A stretch of 64,000 bases of DNA from Deltaproteobacteria bacterium. GTDB lineage: Bacteria > Myxococcota > Myxococcia > SLRQ01. Under the pieces are notes generated by a model that did no database searches, was not told the DNA's origin, and worked only from the letters and a program-made list of their open reading frames with translations. The position numbers were made by a program, and so were the translations under genes. Of this stretch, positions 16,461 to 17,851 are shown in pieces (position 1 is the first letter of the stretch; each line of letters starts with the position of its first letter). The stretch is taken from assembly GCA_029210625.1 (NCBI GenBank), contig JARGFU010000006.1, positions 1 to 64,000 of the forward strand, written 5' to 3'.

Positions 16461-16819
16461 GGGGGCGACTTGGCTTCGACGAGGGCAGTGAAGCCAGCGA
16501 TCGCATGCCGTGGCGCCGCAACCACGTCAAAAGCGGCAAAAACACAAAAGCCAACGACGACGTTGAGCTCGCTCTCGCGGCCTAAACACCCGTAGAGAGT
16601 CGTCCGGCCACCCCGAGCCCGAGGGGGTGGGTCCCGGGCGTCAAACTTTCGGGCTGGTCAGCGCGTTTCGCCCGGCGATGCGCTGACGAGATTTTTGTCG
16701 GGACCGCGTCTCGCATCACCTGTCGGTGGGTGGGTGGGGCGTCAAATTGATCATCGACTAAGCATGTAGTGGTCCTGGTGGAGCGCTTTCGGACCCGGGT
16801 TCGACTCCCGGCGCCTCCA
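16461..16819 (+). ncRNA. ssrA: Transfer-messenger RNA (tmRNA), tag ANDDVELALAA
   Basis: 359 nt. The 5' end GGGGGCG pairs with CGCCTCC at 16812-16818, with one G-U, to form the tRNA-like acceptor stem. The T-arm CCGGGTTCGACTCCCGG precedes it. The CCA end is not encoded. The tag frame starts at GCC 16550 (resume codon) and reads ANDDVELALAA to TAA at 16583-16585. GC-rich pseudoknot-like stems follow. With SmpB it rescues stalled ribosomes and tags the nascent peptide for proteolysis. No convincing promoter is visible directly upstream, and the mature 5' end is normally made by RNase P. The 3' end is reiterated in the adjoining tandem repeat. Confidence 0.93.
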
Positions 16820-17122
16820 AACGATCTCCGTGCGTCCGATCCGAGCGTGTTGCTCGGGTCGGACGTTCGGAGTTCGATCACCGTCGACATGGTTGGAATC
16901 GTGCAACTCCGCGGACTTTCGTCCGCTCCGTTCTGCACGATTCCAACAATGTTCGACTCCCGGCGCCTCCAAACGATCTCCGTGCGTCCGATCCGAGCGT
17001 GTTGCTCGGGTCGGACGTTCGGAGTTCGATCACCGTCGACATGGTTGGAATCGTGCAACTCCGCGGACTTTCGTCCGCTCCGTTCTGCACGATTCCAACA
17101 ATGTTCGACTCCCGGCGCCTCC
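16799..17122. repeat. 152-bp tandem repeat carrying copies of the ssrA 3' end
   Basis: Two full identical-looking units (16799-16950, 16951-17102) and a 20-nt start of a third (17103-17122). Each begins with GTTCGACTCCCGGCGCCTCC, the T-loop and acceptor end of ssrA. Each full unit then holds hairpin A (21-nt arms, 18 matching) and hairpin B (GTTGGAATCGTGCA and its exact complement, with inner GCGGAC/GTCCGC on a tetraloop). The 3' end of ssrA is a classical integrase target, so these look like repeated att-type sequences. No integrase is seen here. Confidence 0.85.
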
Positions 17123-17161: not shown

Positions 17162-17851
17162 ATGGGTCTGAAGGACTGGTTCGGGAAGAAGAAGATCGAG
17201 GCTCCCGCGGCGCCCCCGCCGGAGAGTGACGAGAAGGCGGAGGGGTGGGACGCGATCGAGGCGGCCTTCCTGGAGCACTACCCGGGGCAGACGGATCCGC
17301 CGCACGTGGCGCCGGGGGTCTATCGGATGCACGATCTCTCGGAGAACGCGGCGGCCTTCGACGGGATGAGCGCCTACGACGCGGGGACCTTCTGGCACCT
17401 GGTCTCCTTCGGGCTGACCGAGCTCTACGCCAAGGAGAACGTGGATCAGCCGGAGGTGAGCGGCTTCGGCTACGAGCTGACCTTCCGGATCCCGAAGACC
17501 TCCGAGCGGCCGCCGGCGCTGGCCTTCCGCCTCCTGGACGCCATCGGCAAGGCGGTCTGGGGCGGGCAGGACTTCGCGCCCGGCCACACGATCCAGACCG
17601 GCCCCATCGACGGCAGGCCCGAGACGAAGGAGACGGCGATGCTGGTCCTGCGGGATCCGCTCTTCCCGGAGCCCCTCTCCACGCCTCACGGGCAGGTGGA
17701 CCTCCTCCTGCTCCTGGGCGTCGAGAACGCGCTGCGCGAGGCGGTGATGGCGGCCTACGAGGAGAGCGAGGGCGCCGAGGGCTGGGAGGCCGAGATCGTC
17801 GCCCGGATCCGCGAGGCCAACCCCGAGCTGGTCACCCCCCTGCGCGCCTAG
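17162..17851 (+). CDS. Suppressor-of-fused (SUFU) domain protein
   Basis: 229 aa. The N-terminal ~35 residues are charged and flexible, followed by a SUFU domain: WHLVSFGLTELYAKENVDQPEVSGFGYELTFRIPK, ALAFRLLDAIGKAVW, DGRPETKETAMLVLRDPLF. Bacterial SUFU proteins are commonly found in polymorphic-toxin immunity contexts and as solitary genes; no toxin gene is next to this one. Start ATG 17162 has AGAGGT about 8 nt upstream. It lies directly after the ssrA-derived tandem repeats, as would cargo of an ssrA-targeted insertion, but its base composition looks like the rest of the window. Confidence 0.85.
   Translation: MGLKDWFGKKKIEAPAAPPPESDEKAEGWDAIEAAFLEHYPGQTDPPHVAPGVYRMHDLSENAAAFDGMSAYDAGTFWHLVSFGLTELYAKENVDQPEVSGFGYELTFRIPKTSERPPALAFRLLDAIGKAVWGGQDFAPGHTIQTGPIDGRPETKETAMLVLRDPLFPEPLSTPHGQVDLLLLLGVENALREAVMAAYEESEGAEGWEAEIVARIREANPELVTPLRA

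Follow-up and report, generated by a model that had tools for sequence, protein, structure and literature searches.

Tandem gene-less units bounded by T-loop-edged copies of the ssrA 3′ end, and their likeness to the tyrT repeats of Escherichia coli

Introduction

Why should the end of a tmRNA gene recur twice behind the gene, each time preceded by the same pair of hairpins? This question is raised by the ssrA locus of a Deltaproteobacteria bacterium (Myxococcota; assembly GCA_029210625.1), which lies in the window, namely, the whole 64,000-nt stretch of contig JARGFU010000006.1 that was analyzed. An earlier note, written from the sequence alone, had regarded the repeats as the possible outcome of successive integrations into a classical integrase target. 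The source assembly is a 6.1-Mb draft in 64 contigs, with ssrA on a contig of 262 kb.

Anatomy of the ssrA array

The tmRNA gene encodes the tag ANDDVELALAA according to ARAGORN and scores 195.8 bits with the Rfam model RF00023. A repeat search located its 20-nt terminus, GTTCGACTCCCGGCGCCTCC, at three starts (16799, 16951, and 17103, a spacing of 152/152), and these copies delimit two 152-nt units (16799-16950 and 16951-17102) that are 100% identical and contain no gene, so that the tandem repeats with three ssrA termini described in the earlier note are fully borne out. In tRNA numbering, GTTCGACTCCCGGCGCCTCC runs from G53, which is the T-loop edge and the first base of the GTTCGA motif, to C72, the last acceptor base, and it corresponds to the 20 bases of ssrA just ahead of the discriminator. 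The array consists of n units with n + 1 of these cores, and its edge is at G53. The features are the following, all on the forward strand.

16461..16819, +, ssrA (tmRNA), intact, CCA not encoded (ARAGORN, Rfam)
16799..16818, +, core copy 1, within ssrA, G53-C72, GTTCGACTCCCGGCGCCTCC
16819..16950, +, spacer of unit 1, 132 nt; base 16819 doubles as the ssrA discriminator A
16822..16876, +, hairpin 1 of unit 1, beginning 3 nt past ssrA, with no T-run after it
16860..16876, +, putative degenerate left T-arm half, CGGACGTTCGGAGTTCG against CGGACCCGGGTTCG of ssrA; p = 0.055, only suggestive
16884..16956, +, hairpin 2 of unit 1, whose 3′ arm extends into core copy 2
16951..16970, +, core copy 2 (repeat search)
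16971..17102, +, spacer of unit 2, 132 nt; hairpins at 16974-17028 and 17036-17108, coordinates by the 152-nt offset
17103..17122, +, core copy 3, the right-hand, att-like end, followed by the flank TCACTGCG
17162..17851, +, next gene, SUFU-domain protein, on the same strand as ssrA

Even in a draft assembly, the difference between the left and right flanks guarantees a minimum of one unit and two cores, although the number of units may differ from two, as two perfect 152-nt copies in a 64-contig draft may stand for a longer array that was collapsed. The two hairpins noted in each unit are real, and their strength is far beyond chance: folding gave -44.5 kcal/mol for hairpin 1 (z = -8.8), -40.7 kcal/mol for hairpin 2 (z = -7.6), and -83.9 kcal/mol for the entire 152-nt unit (z = -9.1 versus dinucleotide shuffles).

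It had also been suggested that the extra T-arm and acceptor ends compete for the enzymes that process tmRNA, which the array does not support, as copies 2 and 3 have no T-stem partner. To the left of their G53 stands CCAACAAT, where ssrA has its T-stem strand, GGACCCGG; because the two are unrelated, neither a T-arm nor an acceptor helix can form, and competition for tmRNA maturation is unlikely. In the predicted fold, the GTTCGA of the extra cores pairs with the base of hairpin 2.

The tyrT/tyrV and proK units of Escherichia coli

The repeats behind tyrT of E. coli are usually regarded as a peculiarity of one locus. Strain MG1655 has three 178-nt units with four copies of AATCCTTCCCCCACCACCA behind tyrV, and one related unit lies between tyrT and tyrV. 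The likeness to the ssrA array is in the architecture: at both loci, tandem units follow an RNA gene, n units go with n + 1 cores, the 3′ end of the adjacent gene recurs between the units and behind the last of them, and these copies start at or inside the T-loop and not upstream of it. The E. coli units differ in that they belong to tRNA-Tyr, have their edge at A58, are 178 nt long, and are 94-96% alike, whereas the ssrA units have their edge at G53, are 152 nt long, and are identical. The interiors are unrelated, and the Rfam covariance model of RtT, the E. coli element of the rttR/tpr locus, found no match in the ssrA array.

Variation in copy number by whole units is documented at tyrT/tyrV, where E. 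coli strains carry from 0 to 4 units. Among 5426 E. coli genomes, the spans fall in exact whole-unit steps (711, 533, and 355 bp), strain H40 has 834 bp for query positions 1-656, which is one unit more, and the unit interior has no match in 734 of the genomes. In two strains (L224 and L225), neither tyrT nor tyrV is followed by any unit, and the flank joins the tRNA end directly; units are gained and lost at this locus with exact, clean empty sites.

At proK of E. coli CKJ_1000_3.1 (L242, positions 825-1150), there is a homologue of the tyr unit whose borders are copies of the 3′ end of proK itself, 19 nt in length. Its edge falls between G57 and A58, the same T-loop position as in the tyr units, and its inner T-arm fragments match proK and not tyrT. 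Comparison of the two loci indicates that the T-loop determines where the edge falls and that the core is the host gene's own, and this combination is the strongest hint of a specific process. A second unit at this proK is broken off after the left T-arm half by a REP-like sequence. In the literature searched, older tyrT papers aside, no article was found on such arrays as a class or on the host-specific edge at proK and tyr.

Recurrence of the layout in other lineages

A scan of GTDB contigs for an ssrA-like 3′ end that is repeated after 116-146 nt returned 20 loci, each of which was read; with one spacing window and one 3′-end family, these frequencies are not estimates for all bacteria. Copy identity ends 0-3 nt to the left of G53 in 17 of the 20, while in the other three (L150, L154, and L160) it continues for 20-65 bases, as in ordinary longer duplications. 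The 17 T-loop-edged loci are spread over many phyla, with ssrA or tRNA-Ala as the host gene: the layout occurs in Rikenellaceae, Treponema, Planctomycetota, Acidobacteriales, Lysobacterales, Vampirovibrionales, and Nocardia, as well as at tRNA-Ala of Rhodospirillaceae and Pseudoclavibacter. Several arrays (L156, L161, L162, and L163) are terminated by an additional, decayed core. The similar unit sizes are in part a consequence of the spacer range that the scan accepted. Between lineages, the spacers are unrelated in sequence, often with a terminator or hairpins inside, and z ≤ -2 is reached by 12 of the 18 units that were folded when E. coli and the three ordinary duplications are set aside.

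Of 30 ssrA loci sampled from Rikenellaceae, six have a 3′-end copy within about 400 nt (spacings of 146, 149, 155, 235, 267, and 376) and 24 have none, where three of the six copy-bearing genomes had come from the first GTDB scan. An identical structure fixed in distant relatives, which the earlier note had named as evidence contrary to its reading, was not encountered, as the units of other lineages are unrelated in sequence and their distribution is patchy.

Some units carry a further trace of the host gene. A left half of the T-arm lies 64-79 nt ahead of the next core in E. coli, in several Rikenellaceae, and in a Treponema unit (p = 0.001-0.004); the ssrA array has the weak counterpart listed above, 74 nt before the core, and in most other lineages there is none. 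The pattern looks as if a second copy of the T-arm had received the hairpin segment in its T-loop, which is treated as a lead only because hairpins and T-arms have simple patterns in common. An inverted T-arm inside the ssrA unit was not significant (p = 0.82).

Relatives, recombinases, and possible sources of the unit

The unit of the ssrA array has no further copy in the 6.1-Mb source genome and no match among 96 relatives of the class; a looser pattern of the layout matches the source genome only, among 195 genomes of the phylum, and none of about 85 other tmRNA genes in the class has a close copy of the ssrA 3′ end within 600 nt. A dispersed repeat or REP-like family was ruled out, the ssrA locus being the only occurrence of the unit. 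A phage or plasmid attP was likewise rejected as the source, since the unit has no phage match and only chance-level plasmid matches; the arms of hairpin 2 are absent from viral contigs, and two viral contigs with the generic pattern (L192 and L193) proved to be tRNA gene clusters by sequence. No relative that shares the flanks of the array, and could display an empty site, was found among the class and same-family genomes: the only genome of the same family yielded neither a full tmRNA nor the SUFU neighbor, and the SUFU homologues in the class are distant (30-39% identity), none of them traced to an ssrA neighbor.

The source genome encodes six tyrosine recombinases and one resolvase, and no integrase or resolvase is present on the 262-kb ssrA contig. 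A resolvase and a tyrosine integrase lie within ~10 kb of a tRNA-Arg gene (G000:C2:142317-152522), probably at the end of an island.

Other observations concern further tRNA and tmRNA loci. Behind a tRNA-Met gene of the source genome (L062; G000:C17, 126645-126718, minus strand) there is a decayed one-unit array with two hairpins, after which, ~95 nt downstream, a copy of the tRNA 3′ end follows with 2 mismatches (L062:1381-1405, minus strand). Inverted copies of tRNA 3′ ends (19-24 nt, few mismatches) enclose a terminator behind tRNA-Arg (L048, C15), tRNA-Phe (L052, C40), and another tRNA-Met (L060, C31). In three class relatives, the ssrA 3′ end recurs once, almost unchanged, downstream of the gene (L034, +968; L103, +1029; L118, +778), possibly as part of a small island, and one class relative has, besides a normal ssrA, another tmRNA gene whose predicted tag is unusually long (L122; G012:C41:108227-108545).

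A conventional island might have entered ssrA via the T-loop and then lost its interior, leaving two ends of together 132 nt, with the scar doubled later by recombination between the cores. ssrA is often targeted by islands, and those of Dehalococcoides insert in the middle of the T-loop with a 20-bp direct repeat, form tandem arrays, and lack the integration module in 15 of 31 cases (PMC3146451); the single 3′-end copies 0.8-1.0 kb past ssrA in L034, L103, and L118 also agree with such an origin. As in an integrase-driven island, a displaced 3′ fragment in the same orientation lies downstream of the target; however, no integrase gene lies inside the element or beside it. The Dehalococcoides islands carry genes and often the serine recombinase DsiB, whereas the cargo here is 132 nt without a gene or a nearby recombinase. 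The small sizes recur, albeit in a scan restricted to spacers of 116-146 nt, the two-hairpin interior is unlike random leftovers (z = -8.6), and no island with matching ends was found, so that this origin seems rather unlikely. Islander-type tRNA/tmRNA islands with a T-loop crossover likewise combine an intact target with a displaced 3′ fragment at the far end (PMC4383910), but Islander demands an integrase and at least 2 kb and would filter out the ssrA array; filters of this type may be the reason why small integrase-free units are little recorded.

Possible roles of the hairpins

Alternatively, the units may be a selected RNA element, whose hairpins end or process the ssrA transcript or yield a small RNA like RttR behind E. 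coli tyrV, with the duplication raising its dosage. Hairpin 1 starts immediately behind ssrA, where a T-run terminator is absent in the following 100 nt, versus its presence behind 61 of 85 ssrA loci of the class; the same-strand SUFU gene begins only 40 nt past the array; and RtT/RttR is annotated as a small RNA processed from the tyrT transcript. Further roles have been claimed for RttR. These points are offset by the lack of an RtT match in the array, the patchy distribution, the ordinary stability of the E. coli unit (z = 0.4), and the fact that 26 of 43 tRNA loci of the source genome likewise have no simple T-run. Selection for an RNA is accordingly improbable as the explanation of the array, but it does not exclude the other readings, and trimming or termination of the ssrA transcript is a possible, candidate role of the hairpins.

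Proposed origin

The account that we favor, at about an even chance of being right, is that a gene-less element of the RtT type was inserted into ssrA at the T-loop, with duplication of the 3′ end, and that recombination or slippage between the cores later made two units out of one. A hairpin-bearing segment of ~130 nt would have entered by a T-loop-specific event, perhaps catalyzed by a site-specific recombinase acting in trans, leaving a copy of G53-C72 on both sides and ssrA intact. The resulting single unit with two 20-nt cores would then be doubled, and the same core-core process could remove units and restore the empty site. Insertion directed to the T-loop with a 3′ end on both sides would account for the n + 1 cores, for the constancy of the edge, and for the empty sites. 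No special enzyme would be required for the doubling, since recombination between the 20-nt cores suffices. By analogy, the ssrA array may have arisen like its E. coli counterpart and may share its mobility.

This proposal has to face several observations. Neither an integrase nor a resolvase was found on the contig, nor was there a phage match or a plasmid match above chance. The E. coli module carries T-arm parts of its host tRNA (tyr at tyrT/tyrV, pro at proK), which a simple attP × attB exchange with a fixed core would not predict, and the edge varies by lineage, from G53 at the ssrA array to A58 in E. coli. What stands of the integration claim in the earlier note is the att-type behavior of the cores (n + 1 copies, the T-loop edge, many lineages) together with the copy-number change in E. 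coli, while the nearby integrase and a relative with the same flanks are missing.

Slippage or template switching at the palindrome of the T-arm, where the T-arm and the hairpins would allow the polymerase to jump, would require no recombinase and could produce direct as well as inverted copies of the 3′ end; it would explain the host-specific cores at proK and tyrT. The inverted tRNA 3′ ends around the terminators behind tRNA-Arg, tRNA-Phe, and one tRNA-Met of the source genome are of the expected type, as are the inverted T-arm and the left half of a T-arm inside the E. coli units (p = 0.001-0.004) and the left halves in some Rikenellaceae and Treponema units (p = 0.001-0.002). However, this mechanism does not easily explain why the same T-loop edge recurs across lineages, nor the extra terminal core and the hairpin sequences that have no visible source, and as a full account it is unlikely. 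For the first insertion in the favored proposal, either a tyrosine or serine recombinase or template switching may be responsible: the host-specific proK cores and the inverted tRNA ends in the source genome favor a duplication made on the spot, whereas the exact edge favors a recombinase.

A wider proposal, which is tentative and on balance somewhat doubtful, is that gene-less elements of ~60-180 nt are widespread across phyla, where they insert at the T-loops of tRNA and tmRNA genes, make a second copy of the host gene's 3′ end, and multiply in tandem, the ssrA array being one case. One type of module could then serve different tRNA genes, as at tyrT and proK of E. coli.

Significance

Seen behind tRNA or tmRNA genes in unrelated bacteria, the layout has the appearance of a little-studied class of very small insertions, each directed to a single precise position in its target gene. 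That ssrA and tRNA genes share both this layout and the T-loop edge, even between unrelated phyla, points to one general process, and the range of 0 to 4 units among E. coli strains makes it testable. If this reading is true, units too small for island finders would represent overlooked variation just behind essential RNA genes.
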